Below are positions 14,460 through 26,700 of a stretch of 45,025 nt of DNA, piece by piece (within the stretch, counting starts at the first letter, position 1; every line of letters starts with the position of its first letter). Source of the stretch: Bacilli bacterium (GTDB lineage: Bacteria > Bacillota_I > Bacilli_A > RF39 > UBA660); contig JAFRZY010000003.1 in NCBI GenBank assembly GCA_017442305.1, forward strand, positions 1-45,025, read 5' to 3'. A program made the translations under genes and the position numbers. The notes under the pieces are model-generated. The model was given only the letters and a program-made list of their open reading frames with translations, had not been told where the DNA came from and did no database searches.

Positions 14460-14482
14460 AAAAAAGTCTCTTTTGAGACTTT
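14460..14482 (-). terminator. gerE terminator
   Basis: AAAGTCTC and GAGACTTT pair around a four-base loop. On the reverse strand a T run follows, so this ends gerE before gerM. Confidence 0.8.
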
Positions 14483-14693
14483 ATTTTTCTAAAGTGATTT
14501 CTCCTAATTTTAACAATTCAACAACAGCTTGAGCTCTTCCTTTAACTCCTAATTTTTGCATTGCGTTAGAAATATGGTTTCTAACAGTTTTTTCGCTTAT
14601 GCCTAAAAATAGAGCAATTTCACTTGTTGATTTATTTAAAACTAAAAGTTCAAACACTTCGTGTTCTCTTGTAGTTAAAATACTTTTTTTCAT
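14481..14693 (-). CDS. gerE: GerE, late mother-cell transcription regulator
   Basis: A 70-residue LuxR-type helix-turn-helix protein nearly superimposable on Bacillus GerE. It contains LTTREHEVFELLV, then EIALFLGISEKTVRNHISN (the recognition region) and KLGVKGRAQAVVELLK. The whole protein is the DNA-binding domain, as in true GerE. In Bacillus it tunes coat gene expression in the mother cell after sigma-K becomes active. The ATG was chosen because GAGG lies seven bases before it; a GTG four codons earlier is possible. A sigma-K-type promoter about 50 bases upstream agrees with this timing. The gene sits between spoIIIAH and gerM in a sporulation cluster. Confidence 0.95.
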   Translation of the reverse strand: MKKSILTTREHEVFELLVLNKSTSEIALFLGISEKTVRNHISNAMQKLGVKGRAQAVVELLKLGEITLEK

Positions 14694-14740
14694 ATATTTC
14701 CTCACTTTCTTCTACAATGAGTTTTTTTAATACTTCATAA

Positions 14741-14790: not shown

Positions 14791-15288
14791 TTAATTTTGG
14801 AACTTAACTGTAATATACATTCTTACATCATACATACTTTGAACGGTTCTAATTATTTTGTTAGCAATCTCCGGGGAATGATCATTACTAGCAATTACAA
14901 TGCTTATTTGATCTCCGTCAATTTTTACAAAACTATCTAGTTTATGAGTCTCTTTAATTTTTGCTTCTATTTCATCTTCTTTACCCTTATTTGTATTTAA
15001 AGCTTGTAAAGAATTATAAGCATCATTTTTTTCTTCAAGAGTAGCACTGTCATCAAGTAATACTGTTTGCAACTTTTCCATTTCCGCTAAAACGTTTTCT
15101 TCTTCTTGAACGCGAAGTGCTACTAAAACGTTACTACTAGACACCTCAACTGTAGCAACATCTTCTTTATTATTTACATCTTGAGCCAATGCGGCAAGTG
15201 CATCATCTGACATTGTTAAATAATAAATACTTAATACTAATATAAGTGAAAAAAGTGTTATAAACCATAAATTTTGTTTATTTATCAT
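14791..15288 (-). CDS. spoIIIAH: Stage III sporulation protein AH
   Basis: A 165-residue bitopic protein matching SpoIIIAH, the mother-cell partner of forespore SpoIIQ in the channel across the engulfment space. The N-terminus NKQNLWFITLFSLILVLSIYYLT is the conserved membrane segment. A charged coiled-coil stretch (about 60-110) follows, then the YscJ/FliF-like ring-building domain ending in IIRTVQSMYDVRMYITVKF. GGAGGG precedes the ATG. In Bacillus it is the last gene of the eight-gene spoIIIA operon; here it stands alone beside gerE. Either the operon is split or the other genes are elsewhere. Confidence 0.88.
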   Translation of the reverse strand: MINKQNLWFITLFSLILVLSIYYLTMSDDALAALAQDVNNKEDVATVEVSSSNVLVALRVQEEENVLAEMEKLQTVLLDDSATLEEKNDAYNSLQALNTNKGKEDEIEAKIKETHKLDSFVKIDGDQISIVIASNDHSPEIANKIIRTVQSMYDVRMYITVKFQN

Positions 15289-15409: not shown

Positions 15410-17467
15410 ATGAAGGTTGTAAAACAAAGAGATTTGAAAGATTGTGGCGTATGTTCGCTTTTATCGATAATAACCCACTTTGGTGGATATGTTTCATTGG
15501 AAAAGCTTAGAATTGATACATATACCACCAAAGAAGGAACAAATGCTTATAACTTAATAAAAGCTGCAAAAAGCTATGGTTTTGATTCTTATGGGATTAA
15601 AATAGATGAAAATACTTTATTTAGTGAAAATATAGTATTACCAGCTATAGCGCATTTGCATCTTAAAAATGGATCGGAACATTTTGTGGTTATTTACAAA
15701 ATAAATAAAAACAAATTAATAATTATGGACCCAAGTAAAGGAAAAGTAATTATGTCTAAAAAAGAATTTTTATCGCTTTGGAGTCATGTTTTAATTTTAT
15801 TCCACCCACAACATAAAATTTTAAAATATGCTAAAGAGAGAAAATTAACAAATTTGTTTTTAGAAATAGTTAAAAGTCAAAATAAATGTATTCGTAAATT
15901 AGTTATCACAAGCTTACTATTAACAATAGTTTCAATTTTAACAAGTTATTATTTTAAAATAGGACTAAATGCAATTACAAATAATGTTTACTTGAATTCT
16001 ATTAAATATATTACGTTATTATTTTTTGTACTAACTATTTTTAAAATCATGTTCCAGTATTTACGAAATTATTTCGAAAACCATTTAAATAAAAATATTG
16101 ATATTCATTTGTTTATAAATTTTTTTGAACATCTTTTTAATCTCCCTTTAAGTATAATCCAAAATAGAACTTTGGGAGAGATTGTTACCAGAGTAAATGA
16201 GTTAACTGATTTAAAAACTTTATTTACAGAATTATTTGTTACAATTTTTCTTGATTCTATTTTGGCATTTTCAAGCATGATCTTGTTATTAATAATAAGT
16301 AAAGAACTATTTTTTATTCTTTGTATAGCGCTTTTATTTTATTTATTAATTGGGATAATTTTTTACAAGATTAATTATCGTAAAATCATGCTAAACATCG
16401 AAAAAGAGGTTGATTTTAATACTACCTTGATAGAAAATTTAAGTATGATAAATAGTATTAAAAAACTTAATACAACAACTAGTAATATAACTAAAGTAGA
16501 AAATAAGTTGTTAAATTTTGTTAAAGATAATTTTTTGTTAACTAATTTTTTTGATAAACAAAAATTATTGAAATCTTGCATTAATGAAATAACTATATTT
16601 ATGATTAATACAATAGGATTTTATTTAATTAAAAATAAACAATTAGAAATAGTTGATTTGATAACATTTAATAGTTTAATGGGATTTTATTTTGAATCAA
16701 TTAAAAATACGATAGATATGTTACCAAAAGTTAGTTACTTAAAAGCTACTTTTTACAAACTAAACGATTTTCTTTCTAATGATATTGAGAAACTAGATGA
16801 TACAAAAGAAAACTTACTTAACAATGATATCGAAATTAAAAATTTGGATTATAGTTATAATGGCTATCAAAACATATTTACTAATTTGAATTTTAGCATA
16901 AAGGCAAATGAACATGTATTCTTAAAAGGTGATAGTGGCTCTGGTAAAAGTACAATTTGCAAAATGATTTACAGACTTCTTAATATAAATAAAGGAAATA
17001 TTTTAATAGGAGGAGTGAGTATTTCTGACTACAATTTAAATACAATACGAAATAATGTTACTTATTTATCTCAAGATGAAAATATTTACACTGATACAAT
17101 AAGAGAAAATATTATTTTTAATCGTAATATAGATTTAAAAGAATTAAAGAAAGTATGTGAAATTTGTAAATTAGAAAATATCGTGGCAACCAAACCTTTG
17201 CGATATGAAAGTTTAATAAGTAATGATGCTAATTTTATATCTGGAGGTGAAAAACAAAGAATTGTTTTGGCAAGGGCATTATTAAAATCTAGTAAAGTTT
17301 TAATTTTAGATGAAGCCATGAGTGAGGTTGATTATAAACTGGAATCCGATATTATTAAGAATATTCTAAAAACTTATAAAGAAAAAACAATTATATATAT
17401 ATCACATAAAAATCACGAAAAATTATTTGACCGAACTATATTTATAAAAGGCATGCATGAATACTGA
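15410..17467 (+). CDS. C39 peptidase-containing ABC exporter for double-glycine peptides
   Basis: A single-chain bacteriocin processing and export ABC transporter. The N-terminal C39 cysteine peptidase (1-130) has catalytic Cys12 in KDCGVCSL, His91 in SEHFVV and Asp107 in IMDPSKG, and would cut leaders after Gly-Gly. A membrane domain spans about 155-430. The nucleotide-binding domain has Walker A GDSGSGKST near 507-515, the signature SGGEKQR near 611, Walker B LILDEAMSEVD and the switch ISHK. At 685 residues it is slightly short of the usual 700-730. Its stop overlaps the accessory gene by 11 bases, and two matching precursor peptides follow, so the substrate is evident from context. It probably works as a dimer in the membrane. 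Confidence 0.93.
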   Translation: MKVVKQRDLKDCGVCSLLSIITHFGGYVSLEKLRIDTYTTKEGTNAYNLIKAAKSYGFDSYGIKIDENTLFSENIVLPAIAHLHLKNGSEHFVVIYKINKNKLIIMDPSKGKVIMSKKEFLSLWSHVLILFHPQHKILKYAKERKLTNLFLEIVKSQNKCIRKLVITSLLLTIVSILTSYYFKIGLNAITNNVYLNSIKYITLLFFVLTIFKIMFQYLRNYFENHLNKNIDIHLFINFFEHLFNLPLSIIQNRTLGEIVTRVNELTDLKTLFTELFVTIFLDSILAFSSMILLLIISKELFFILCIALLFYLLIGIIFYKINYRKIMLNIEKEVDFNTTLIENLSMINSIKKLNTTTSNITKVENKLLNFVKDNFLLTNFFDKQKLLKSCINEITIFMINTIGFYLIKNKQLEIVDLITFNSLMGFYFESIKNTIDMLPKVSYLKATFYKLNDFLSNDIEKLDDTKENLLNNDIEIKNLDYSYNGYQNIFTNLNFSIKANEHVFLKGDSGSGKSTICKMIYRLLNINKGNILIGGVSISDYNLNTIRNNVTYLSQDENIYTDTIRENIIFNRNIDLKELKKVCEICKLENIVATKPLRYESLISNDANFISGGEKQRIVLARALLKSSKVLILDEAMSEVDYKLESDIIKNILKTYKEKTIIYISHKNHEKLFDRTIFIKGMHEY

Positions 17468-17876
17468 TATACTAAATAATAAATATGCTTTATTAAATCT
17501 CAAACTTAAATATAGTGGGTTAATAATTATTTCGTTAATACTGTTTTTACTTCTTATATTTTCTTCTATCTATTATAAAACTTATGATTCTTTTAAAGTT
17601 TCGGGAATAATACATAATACTAAAATTGTCATTACGGTATTTCCTAATGATATAAATGATATTGTAAAAAGTGATTTTTTTAAGGTGAATAAAGAAAAAT
17701 ATAAATTTTCTGTCGAATCAATTTCTGAAGTAGAGTATGATGTAAATTCTAATAGTTTTTATCAAAAAGTTACTTTATCCACTTCCGGTAATTTTTTGGA
17801 TAATGAAATAGTAGATTTAACATTTTATAAAAACAAACAAAGAATAATAAACAAAGTAATTAATTTACTAAAATGA
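17457..17876 (+). CDS. Short membrane accessory or immunity protein of the bacteriocin cassette
   Basis: A 139-residue protein with one membrane segment (about 20-42) and an outside domain rich in beta strands. It overlaps the exporter gene by 11 bases and ends 11 bases before the first peptide gene, so it belongs to the cassette. The layout (short inside part, one membrane helix, then VSGIIHNTKIVITV and a C-terminal strand pair with NEIVDLTFYKNKQ) resembles a membrane fusion protein of the HlyD type from which the long coiled-coil hairpin is absent. That would make it an export helper. It could instead be the immunity protein, for which no other candidate is visible. Both readings are inference. 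Confidence 0.6.
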   Translation: MNTDILNNKYALLNLKLKYSGLIIISLILFLLLIFSSIYYKTYDSFKVSGIIHNTKIVITVFPNDINDIVKSDFFKVNKEKYKFSVESISEVEYDVNSNSFYQKVTLSTSGNFLDNEIVDLTFYKNKQRIINKVINLLK

Positions 17877-17887
17877 AAGGGGATAAA

Positions 17888-18031
17888 ATGGTTTTATTAA
17901 AAGACAAAGATTTGGTAGAGATTAATGGTGGCGGAGTAAAAAAGGGGTTATTAATAGGACTTGCTGCTTTAGGTGCTTTAGTAGCAGGAATTATTGACGG
18001 CTTGCTTCGGCCATTAAAATGTCGTAGTTAG
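17888..18031 (+). CDS. Bacteriocin precursor peptide 1 (double-glycine leader)
   Basis: A 47-residue precursor that is too short for usual gene calling. The leader MVLLKDKDLVEINGG fits the C39 leader pattern, with Leu at -12 and -7, Ile at -4 and Gly-Gly at -2/-1. The predicted mature peptide is about 32 residues, GVKKGLLIGLAALGALVAG and onwards, cationic at its start and end and strongly hydrophobic between. Two GxxxG motifs (20-24 and 34-38) suit helix-helix pairing, and a Cys stands near the C-terminus (CRS). GGGG precedes the ATG. With the next gene it looks like a two-peptide (class IIb) bacteriocin. A third Gly at 16 leaves the cut site uncertain by one residue. Confidence 0.82.
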   Translation: MVLLKDKDLVEINGGGVKKGLLIGLAALGALVAGIIDGLLRPLKCRS

Positions 18032-18040
18032 GGGGGTAAT

Positions 18041-18196
18041 ATGAAATTAAGTAATGAAGAACTGATAAAAATTAGTGGAGGAGGTATCTCTGCTTCGCTT
18101 CTAAACGCTATTTCAAGAGCGTTTACAACCGCAATAAATTTAGGACAAATTATTGGCTCGGCTATCCGGAGAATAATTTCAAAAAGTGCCTGTTAA
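18041..18196 (+). CDS. Bacteriocin precursor peptide 2 (double-glycine leader)
   Basis: A 51-residue precursor. The leader MKLSNEELIKISGG is a model double-glycine leader (LSxxELxxIxGG). The mature part would be about 37 residues, GISASLLNAISRAFTTAIN and onwards, amphipathic, with a GxxxG motif (GQIIG, 35-39), a basic patch (IRRIISK) and a C-terminal Cys. It begins nine bases after the stop of peptide 1 with GGGGGG as ribosome binding site, so the two are made together. Each partner having a GxxxG and a single Cys near the end suggests that they pair in a membrane, possibly linked by a disulfide. A terminator follows immediately. Confidence 0.82.
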   Translation: MKLSNEELIKISGGGISASLLNAISRAFTTAINLGQIIGSAIRRIISKSAC

Positions 18197-18221
18197 AAGA
18201 TTGGATTCTTCCAATCTTTTT
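18196..18221 (+). terminator. Terminator of bacteriocin cassette
   Basis: A 10-bp stem (AAAGATTGGA and its complement) with a TTCT loop and a T run starts at the stop codon of peptide 2. Confidence 0.85.
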
Positions 18222-18253: not shown

Positions 18254-18274
18254 TTAACTATGGTAGGTGATATT

Positions 18275-19252
18275 ATGTTAAATAGATTATCATATATATG
18301 TACAGTAGGTCCAAGCATGGCTAATAATAGTATTTTAGAAGAAATGTATAAGTTAGGAATGGATACGATAAGATTTAATATGTCTTATAATCATCCTAAA
18401 TTGTATGATTTAATCACTATTGCTAAGGAATTTAAACAAAAACATTCAGATGTTGCCTTGCTTATTGATTCGGCTGGCCCTGAAATTAGAGTGTTAATAG
18501 ATGAACCTTTAGAGTTTTCGGCAAATGATCTTATCACGATAGGTAAAGACTTTAAATTAACAATCAGTGATTTAGCTTTGCTAAATATAGGAGATTTAAT
18601 TTATTTAAAAGATGGAGATTATATCTTAGAGGTAATAGAAAAAGGAACAGATACTGCTATATGTAAAGCATTAACTGCTGGCGTTATAAAAAACAATTTT
18701 AAAGTCTATAATGAAAGCTTATATAATGCTTTGCCATTTTTATCAGAATATGATGAAGAATGTATAAAATTAGCGTGCGAAAATCCTGTAGATTATTTTG
18801 CAGTATCATTTGTTAGAAATGCTGATAATATTTTGCAAGTTAAAGATATGTTAAAAAAATATGGTAGAGAAGATATAAAAATTATAGCTAAAATCGAAAC
18901 TCCTAGAAGTTTGGCAAATCTAGATGAAATTATTGATGTTAGTGATGAAATTATGATTGCTAGAGGAGATTTAAGTACTCTTACTCCTAGGGCTAATATA
19001 GCGCATTATCAAAAATACATATGTCAAAAATGCCAAGAAAAAAATAAACCAATTATGTTAGCAACTGGAGTTTTGGCTTCAATGGAACAAAAAGAAGAAC
19101 CGACAATTGCGGAAATACTTGATTTATATAATATAGTTTTAGATGGTATAACTAAAATAGTATTTACAAGCGAAACTTCAGTATCAATCGATCCTTTGGA
19201 TGTTTTAAGCACCGCCAATAAAATCTTTGATACTGTAAAAAAGAAAAATTAA
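18275..19252 (+). CDS. Short divergent pyruvate-kinase-like protein
   Basis: A 325-residue relative of pyruvate kinase. The start at 18275 follows TAGGTGAT; a longer frame starts 11 codons earlier without such a site. The barrel is recognisable: YICTVGPSM, IRFNMSYNH, GPEIRV, SFVRNADN, IIAKIETPRS with the essential Lys, and IARGDLS with the metal Asp. It lacks the whole C-terminal allosteric domain of the usual 470-580 residue enzyme. Several active-site positions differ: SAGPEIR instead of TKGPEIR, and LATGVLASM instead of TATQMLxSM. It may be a slow, unregulated kinase or have another job. It is a single-gene unit between the bacteriocin cassette and rpsU. Confidence 0.7.
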   Translation: MLNRLSYICTVGPSMANNSILEEMYKLGMDTIRFNMSYNHPKLYDLITIAKEFKQKHSDVALLIDSAGPEIRVLIDEPLEFSANDLITIGKDFKLTISDLALLNIGDLIYLKDGDYILEVIEKGTDTAICKALTAGVIKNNFKVYNESLYNALPFLSEYDEECIKLACENPVDYFAVSFVRNADNILQVKDMLKKYGREDIKIIAKIETPRSLANLDEIIDVSDEIMIARGDLSTLTPRANIAHYQKYICQKCQEKNKPIMLATGVLASMEQKEEPTIAEILDLYNIVLDGITKIVFTSETSVSIDPLDVLSTANKIFDTVKKKN

Positions 19253-24762: not shown

Positions 24763-26700
24763 ATGAGAAATAAAAAGACAGTAATTACGGTAACTAGTAT
24801 AGTAGCAGTACTCCTAGTAATAATCGGAGTAACGTATGCATACTGGTTAGTAACAAAGACGCAGACAAACCAAAATATAATTTCATCAGGATGTTTAGAT
24901 ATATCATTAAGTGGTGAGAAAAATGATATTGAACTACAAGATCAATTTCCATTAAGTGATGAAGACGGTATGAAGTTAACTCCTTATGAATTTACAGTAA
25001 CAAATAACTGTACAACAAGCGTAGATTATTACGTAAACTTAGAATCATTAGGAATAGAGTCAAGTGCAATAAGTGCTAGTGCCTTAAAAATAGCGCTTAA
25101 TGATAATGTAAGTATTCTAGGAGATAATTATGAAACGGATAAAACAATAAGTGAAGCATATGTAGCGCATAGAATAGCATATGGAACACTAGCTGCAAAA
25201 GATACAGAAAACGCATCAGTAACATATGAATTGCGTATATGGATAGATGCGAATGCTCCAATAAGTGAACAAAATAAAACATTCCAAAGTAAGATAAGCG
25301 TAACAGTAGGACAAGGAGTAAATAATCCATTAAAAGAAGGAACACTAGCATATGATTTAGTTTCAAATTATGGTGGAGCATCTAATGCTAAAGAAGTACA
25401 ATCTATGAAATCGACAACATATATTGAAAGTGATTGGATAGAATCATCAGCTTCTATTTGGTATGAAGATGAAATTTATTGGGGAACGGATTATGAGTAC
25501 GATGAATATACACATATGTTTACACTAACCGGAGATGTTGTTTTAGCAACACATGCAGAATGTAATGCTGGTACAAAAAATTGTGGTGAATATTTTGTTG
25601 GTACTGAAGGTGATGGTTGCGGTTATGAAGTTTGTGGATGGACAAGCAATAAATTAAGTGATGAGGTTTTATTAAAAAGAGATTATGAACTATCCCCAGA
25701 TGCATTTTTAGAACCTCAGTGGTGGAGTGCGAAATTAAAATTAACTGTAGCAACAACAACAACAATTACAGAAACAACAACAGGTTTATATAAAGCTTTG
25801 GATGATTTAGGAACTAGTTATTATTTAAAGGGCGATATAACAAATAACTATGTAAAATTTGGTAAATGGAATGAGTCAGTTGGTGGTTGGTATGGTGGTT
25901 CATTAGATTATGGCCCATTTGATACTTTAGAAGCCTGTCAAGCTGAATCAGAAAATGGAGCCCCATGGATGCCAGAAGAGTGTTTTCAAGAGATCATAGT
26001 CGCCAAAGATAGTGATATGATATGGCAAATTGTAAGAATAAATGGCGATGGAACTATAAGATTAGCCTTAGTTAAAGATGTATTAAAATCGCAATATAAT
26101 TCAATAGCCAACGATACTAAATATGTAGGATTTACATATGATGATGGAAGCGGAAATCAAATAGATAGTACCATTAAAGATGTATTAGATTTATGGTACG
26201 AAACAAATTTAAAAGGTACGTATGATAAATATATAGCTGACGAAATATTCTGTAATGATCGTAGTGCAGGTTTTTTCGATGGTGAGTATGGGTTTGATAG
26301 CAGATTGATTAAAGAAGCTGAACATTATAGTCGAATTGTTCCAACATTAATATGTAAGAATCAAGCCGATAGATATACAGTTAGTAATTCAAAAGGCAAT
26401 AGCTTATTAACAAATCCGGTAGGATTACTAACCGCTGATGAATACTTATTATCTTCGATATACGATGAAAATGCCACGAGTTATACTTTTTCAGGGCATT
26501 TATATCAATCATCACCAGAATTTTGGACAATGACTCCATCAAGCGGAACAAATGTGTATGTTATTGGCTCTATGGGAGAGGTAACTCCTAGTTCTATTGA
26601 TTTAGATAATATCGTTTATCCAGTTATCAATCTAAAAGCGGATGTTAAATTTACTGGTACGGGTGAATATGAAACTCCTTATGAAATTGTGACAGAATAA
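24763..26700 (+). CDS. Large cell-surface protein, paralogue 2 (complete)
   Basis: The complete 645-residue member of a family with three copies here. Residues 7-28 are a hydrophobic signal or anchor ending in VTYAYW. A conserved N-terminal domain follows (about 35-190) with Cys44 (SSGCLDIS) and Cys83 (TVTNNC). The middle and C-terminal parts are Trp/Tyr/Gly-rich and differ strongly from paralogue 1, with additional Cys pairs, before the shared IVRINGDGTIR motif and a final VINLKADVKFTGTG segment. The N-terminus recalls TasA/camelysin-like secreted proteins; no sortase motif is seen. A GTAGG sequence before the ATG lies in a small hairpin (ATCCTA/TAGGAT). It stands between recO and glyS, which are adjacent in Bacillus, so it was probably inserted. 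Its exact function is unknown. Confidence 0.8.
   Translation: MRNKKTVITVTSIVAVLLVIIGVTYAYWLVTKTQTNQNIISSGCLDISLSGEKNDIELQDQFPLSDEDGMKLTPYEFTVTNNCTTSVDYYVNLESLGIESSAISASALKIALNDNVSILGDNYETDKTISEAYVAHRIAYGTLAAKDTENASVTYELRIWIDANAPISEQNKTFQSKISVTVGQGVNNPLKEGTLAYDLVSNYGGASNAKEVQSMKSTTYIESDWIESSASIWYEDEIYWGTDYEYDEYTHMFTLTGDVVLATHAECNAGTKNCGEYFVGTEGDGCGYEVCGWTSNKLSDEVLLKRDYELSPDAFLEPQWWSAKLKLTVATTTTITETTTGLYKALDDLGTSYYLKGDITNNYVKFGKWNESVGGWYGGSLDYGPFDTLEACQAESENGAPWMPEECFQEIIVAKDSDMIWQIVRINGDGTIRLALVKDVLKSQYNSIANDTKYVGFTYDDGSGNQIDSTIKDVLDLWYETNLKGTYDKYIADEIFCNDRSAGFFDGEYGFDSRLIKEAEHYSRIVPTLICKNQADRYTVSNSKGNSLLTNPVGLLTADEYLLSSIYDENATSYTFSGHLYQSSPEFWTMTPSSGTNVYVIGSMGEVTPSSIDLDNIVYPVINLKADVKFTGTGEYETPYEIVTE

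Follow-up and report, generated by a model that had tools for sequence, protein, structure and literature searches.

A near-core, class IIb-like two-peptide secretion cassette in a family of uncultured small-genome Bacilli

Across a large clade of uncultured small-genome bacteria, we found a near-core peptide-secretion cassette in which two adjacent genes for double-glycine peptides (A and B) follow a C39-peptidase exporter. The explanation that we favour, with somewhat more confidence than doubt, is a membrane-active two-peptide system of class IIb-like type, conserved across the clade and inherited vertically, that would rely on C39 export, on pairing of A with B and, in many relatives, on a third gene, C, for immunity; "bacteriocin" is the likely label for the A-B system, but not a settled one. 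New here are the strongly conserved GxxxG motifs in both mature peptides, the joint C-terminal cysteine and the B-like gene C in relatives.

The window (the whole stretch of 45,025 nucleotides that was analysed, contig JAFRZY010000003.1 of an RF39 bacterium) carries the cassette on its forward strand. The initial annotation had proposed two adjacent precursors of 47 and 51 residues with double-glycine leaders and GxxxG motifs in both mature parts, and the reading frames bear this out. Peptide A (47 aa; sequence MVLLKDKDLVEINGG / GVKKGLLIGLAALGALVAGIIDGLLRPLKCRS) is encoded at 17888..18031, with a GG leader at 17888-17932 and the mature part at 17933-18028; peptide B (51 aa; sequence MKLSNEELIKISGG / GISASLLNAISRAFTTAINLGQIIGSAIRRIISKSAC) is encoded at 18041..18196, with a GG leader at 18041-18082 and the mature part at 18083-18193. 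For A, an in-frame ATG is also present at 17873, and AAAGGGG stands 5 nt 5' of the ATG at 17888. Mature A reads as a hydrophobic helix that contains GVKKG, GLLIG and GIIDG and ends in GIIDGxxRPxxC, and mature B as a cationic amphipathic helix with GQIIG, as part of GQIIGSAIRR, and a terminal Cys. Peptide A scored 23.0 bits against the NCBIfam model TIGR03949 (lactobin A/cerein 7B, class IIb; curated cut-off 21.5), which was matched at E<0.01 by 28 of 36 A peptides of the family. Window B reached no bacteriocin model at its cut-off, TIGR03949 included, and few B peptides among the relatives matched bacteriocin models. A PDB sequence search with A and B matched leaders or noise only; both leaders weakly resemble that of CtA, the substrate of PCAT1.

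The exporter, a C39-peptidase ABC protein of the PCAT1/ComA type (685 aa, 15410..17467), matches PF03412 (1.1e-36), PF00664 and PF00005. Its best PDB match is PCAT1 (4ry2, E 4.6e-96), full-length over the C39, TM and ATPase domains, and its QRDLKDCG, HFVVIY and DPSKG align to PCAT1; against TIGR01193 it scored 396.9 bits, below the curated cut-off of 523.85. Judged by these alignments, it is a divergent branch of the PCAT1/ComA transporters, and it is predicted to cut the leaders of A and B after GG and to export both peptides. The peptide genes had been placed directly behind the exporter. They do lie downstream of it, but not directly, since a 139-aa gene (17457..17876) that overlaps the exporter end intervenes.

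The product of this gene, companion D, consists of one TM helix and a small beta domain and matched no Pfam family. In its AlphaFold model (pLDDT 93.5), a TM helix at residues 20-39 is followed by a compact beta domain. The best Foldseek match against the PDB was the pneumococcal MFP Spr0693 (prob 0.98, E 0.043), and the adaptors MexA, MacA, ZneB and CusB were also among the top matches, none of which fell below E 0.001. With the LAB accessory protein profile, hhalign gave a weak colinear match (16.1; shuffle mean 9.2, maximum 17.9). HlyD-type accessories (AbpD, LcnD/ComB) likewise have an N-terminal TM helix followed by a beta domain and a gene that adjoins the exporter; however, they span about 380-475 residues, whereas the 139 residues of D leave no room for a coiled coil and a lipoyl domain, and sequence similarity is weak. 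Our best guess from the model is that D is probably a miniature membrane-fusion (HlyD-like) export accessory. It is present in 91 of the 115 loci with A. As a candidate immunity protein we set it aside because of its absence from the other 24, its MFP-fragment-like model and the better candidacy of C, although it could still serve as such where C is missing.

Directly 3' of B, a terminator-like hairpin (18195..18220, forward strand; MFE -13.2 kcal/mol, z -3.9) was found, which a consensus terminator scan did not list; sigma-70-like sites in the window were no commoner than in shuffles. Upstream of the exporter, two divergent genes on the reverse strand encode a GerE-like protein (14481-14705; PF00196, 2.3e-18) and SpoIIIAH (14791-15288; PF12685, 4.1e-13). 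Two further features of the window were recorded. A pyruvate kinase-like protein of 326 aa, encoded at 18272-19252, 3' of the hairpin, has the barrel domain only (PF00224) and does not reach the length of NCBI's models for pyruvate kinase, and two paralogous large surface-type proteins (176-1768 and 24763-26700) have the motif PYEFTVTNNC.TSVDY.VNLESLG in common.

Of 121 loci, 115 have a homologous A and 113 a homologous B downstream of this exporter, with the gene order unchanged. Of 291 genomes sampled from the host family, 251 have the exporter, almost always in single copy; a search of the genome's contigs with the exporter returned distant exporters only. The B profile matched 227 of 241 genomes drawn from the host order, all belonging to one family, and 205 of the 216 near-complete ones. 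In a class-wide sample, B was found in 35 of 38 own-family genomes and at full length in none of 258 genomes of other families, two of which match along the leader only; in a phylum-wide sample, matches to B extended beyond the leader in own-family genomes only. Open frames of 118-139 aa in three genomes from other families of the class (G381, G538 and G707) align with the B profile over its leader alone, and small genomes of this type may hold a class of C39 substrates with larger cargo.

Exporter and B are absent together. Ten of the 14 genomes without B lack any C39 domain, one has a marginal C39 match and three have C39 by an apparent contig start, as judged from match coordinates; C39 is present in all eight B-bearing genomes that the exporter search at E 1e-60 had failed to pick up. 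In the exporter tree (120 rows), 39 of 40 multi-member genera were monophyletic, and the neighbours across 120 loci were rpsU/yqeY downstream in 63 and sporulation genes (gerE/spoIIIAH/gerM) upstream in 34. Because the tree follows the genera, the neighbours are kept in many loci and the cassette is restricted to one family, we consider it old and vertically inherited rather than mobile. A mobile origin was also rejected on the finding that no plasmid or phage searched gave a peptide B match. Pooled pN/pS was 0.25 for A and 0.24 for B over 16 close pairs and 0.35 for C, which is present in eight of these pairs, implying that all three are real, constrained genes.

RF39 bacteria have reduced genomes and are predicted to sporulate (PMC10868615). 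In the host order, which comprises a single family, we found small genomes with Spo0A, SpoIIIAH and a single-chain GlyRS, and its class includes other very small genomes; these traits would agree with RF39. Bacteriocins are not mentioned in one RF39 genome paper, and among the publications searched on RF39 with bacteriocin or exporter topics no title or abstract describes a system of this kind.

Typical bacteriocins are patchy in distribution, and the occurrence of the cassette in about 95% of near-complete genomes, together with purifying selection, counts against our favoured explanation. Since bacteriocins are seldom conserved to a near-core degree, a non-killing role has to be weighed, in which the A-B pair would act on the producer's own population, for example by lysing siblings, remodelling the membrane or taking part in sporulation, and C would modulate it. 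The high frequency of B, the genus-following inheritance, the low pN/pS values and the recurrent sporulation or rpsU/yqeY neighbours would all suit such a physiological system. A sporulation link in particular could be suspected from the gerE/spoIIIAH genes beside the cassette in the window, yet genomes without the cassette retain Spo0A in 9 of 11 cases and SpoIIIAH in 6 of 11, so that neither correlation nor co-loss with sporulation is seen. The matches of A to class IIb models and the layout of a GxxxG pair, which is typical of class IIb, also argue against this reading, and we regard it as rather unlikely.

The family alignments define GxxDGxxRPxxC at the end of A and LGRxxGS/TxIRR plus a terminal Cys in B, with invariant GxxxG glycines; GxxxG is present in 113 of 117 A, 112 of 114 B and 47 of 47 C sequences. 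Across the family, the mature A peptides are hydrophobic, with a GRAVY of 1.16 and a median charge of +1, and the mature B peptides cationic and amphipathic (median charge +4). Exactly one Cys occurs in 104 of 117 mature A and 100 of 114 mature B peptides, which makes an intramolecular bridge impossible in these. The terminal Cys is present in both partners of 107 pairs and in neither partner of three, with no discordant pair; three apparent mismatches reported by the script end in CGN or CGR, which its regular expression misses, and were corrected by eye. The Cys-less pairs are those of loci L105 and L097 and the second pair of L101; as L105 and L101 belong to the same genus, they amount to about two independent joint losses. 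This joint presence or absence suggests an A-B disulfide through the C-terminal cysteines. Locus L101 (genome G045) has two tandem A-B pairs downstream of the exporter, the first with Cys in both peptides and the second with Cys in neither. Other unusual arrangements are an amidase-like 357-aa protein (L139:1302-2375) and a methyltransferase-like 227-aa protein (L176:5711-6394), both named by eye, between A and B, and an extra, diverged A-like GG peptide ahead of the usual A-B pair in L106 and L109.

In 47 of 113 relatives' loci, a leaderless helix ORF of 42-70 aa, which we call C, follows B, and in 45 of the 47 it begins before B has ended. Its product combines a basic N-terminus, a hydrophobic segment and a GxxxG region resembling that of B, with invariant glycines, and AlphaFold predicts a single helix at residues 9-51 (pLDDT 89.5). 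Aligned by hhalign, mature B and C gave a score of 28.8 (E 8.8e-7), compared with a maximum of 16.0 in 400 column shuffles and a score of 4.3 for mature A and C. Since it was the B profile that had first drawn attention to C, we controlled for ascertainment with unselected ORFs, namely all those of at least 30 residues starting near the B stop: 32 of 71 matched the mature-B HMM (E 0.01), as against 0 of 735 controls. C is clustered on the exporter tree. Short C-like ORFs in loci counted as lacking it (L128, L182, L199) make 47 a lower bound. The window has no C, and B ends there with the hairpin; a C profile search of the window's genome, which is 65% complete, found no match. Neither C, by profile, nor any other evident immunity gene was found in the operon of the window and 65 other loci. 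We also considered that C might be hidden elsewhere in C-less genomes; the profile matches there were B itself or weak and mostly in larger frames.

Class IIb bacteriocins include lactococcin G, plantaricin JK/EF, carnobacteriocin XY and ABP-118. As in these systems, the cassette encodes, side by side, two peptides of 30-40 residues that each have a GG leader and a GxxxG motif, together with a dedicated C39 exporter, and relatives have a one-helix gene of 42-70 aa directly downstream, comparable in size to CbnZ (42 aa) and AbpIM (55 aa). GxxxG or GxxxG-like motifs in both peptides are a criterion of the class (PMC8538875), and two different small peptides lie side by side in the window and in nearly all relatives. 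The class IIb assignment of the initial annotation thus agrees with the paired peptides, GG leaders, C39 export, GxxxG motifs and above-cut-off score of A, and sits uneasily with the near-core spread. Other differences from class IIb are vertical inheritance of a near-universal cassette in one clade, a single Cys at the C-terminus of each peptide, the absence of regulatory genes, an immunity gene that often cannot be identified, and the tiny D in place of a full HlyD-type accessory. On pMP118, analysed as a control, two peptides and a 55-aa gene show the layout seen here, but with a full HlyD accessory and regulators; we take these genes to be those of ABP-118 from their annotation, their sizes and the known features of the locus. 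When B was compared with an ABP-118 peptide, the leader alone was common to both.

CbnZ is a 42-aa, one-TM class IIb immunity protein encoded immediately downstream of its peptides (PMC6957408). Like it and the other short class IIb immunity proteins (BrcI, EnkIaz, AbpIM), C is small, has a single hydrophobic helix, predicted to lie in the membrane, and is encoded directly after the peptides. Unlike AbpIM, which visibly resembles neither its own Abp118 peptides nor C, C is recognisably similar to mature B. Mimicry is therefore not a general class IIb feature, and we rejected it as a rule for the class. Within the present family, the similarity to B points to C as a candidate immunity protein that may act by mimicry of B.

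We propose that the C39 exporter, aided by the miniature MFP-like D, would cleave A and B after GG and export them. Outside the cell, hydrophobic A would pair with cationic amphipathic B through the conserved GxxxG faces, the pair probably being locked by a disulfide between the single C-terminal cysteines, and would insert, presumably as a pore, in the membranes of siblings or of competing relatives. C, leaderless and B-like, would stay in the producer membrane and fill B's place on A, conferring immunity; a membrane-held B copy encoded right after B would most simply be a decoy on A. We put forward only tentatively the full combination of a covalent A-B heterodimer in a near-core genome with immunity by mimicry, in which C takes B's seat on A and C-less lineages have other self-protection or do not kill.

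C39/GG export also serves signals such as ComC, and the mature sequences are conserved, as they would be in a pair of pheromones whose sensor is a membrane histidine kinase or a cytoplasmic regulator. The initial annotation had named close similarity to a known signalling peptide as contrary evidence; the search returned no such match, and ComC/EntF-type models gave weak matches to few members, confined to the leader where coordinates were listed, including in the window. The window has no histidine kinase/response-regulator pair beside the cassette, both peptides carry helix-pairing motifs, and a C that copies B is easier to reconcile with a membrane partner than with a receptor, which together make a pheromone pair improbable. 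Short ORFs abound in AT-rich DNA; that A and B are merely two such frames, unrelated and with a fortuitous resemblance to leaders at their starts, is refuted by order-wide conservation, purifying selection and the conserved motifs and Cys.

The immunity mechanism of class IIb bacteriocins has been described as unknown (PMC8538875) and called "a mystery" (PMC6957408). For the favoured class IIb-like system, a putative immunity gene that visibly descends from one of the two peptides, or has converged on it, would give a direct decoy hypothesis for the GxxxG partner, and more than 40 natural A-B-C sets are available for testing it. Near-core peptide secretion in a large uncultured clade of reduced genomes further raises the question of why such small genomes retain the cassette.
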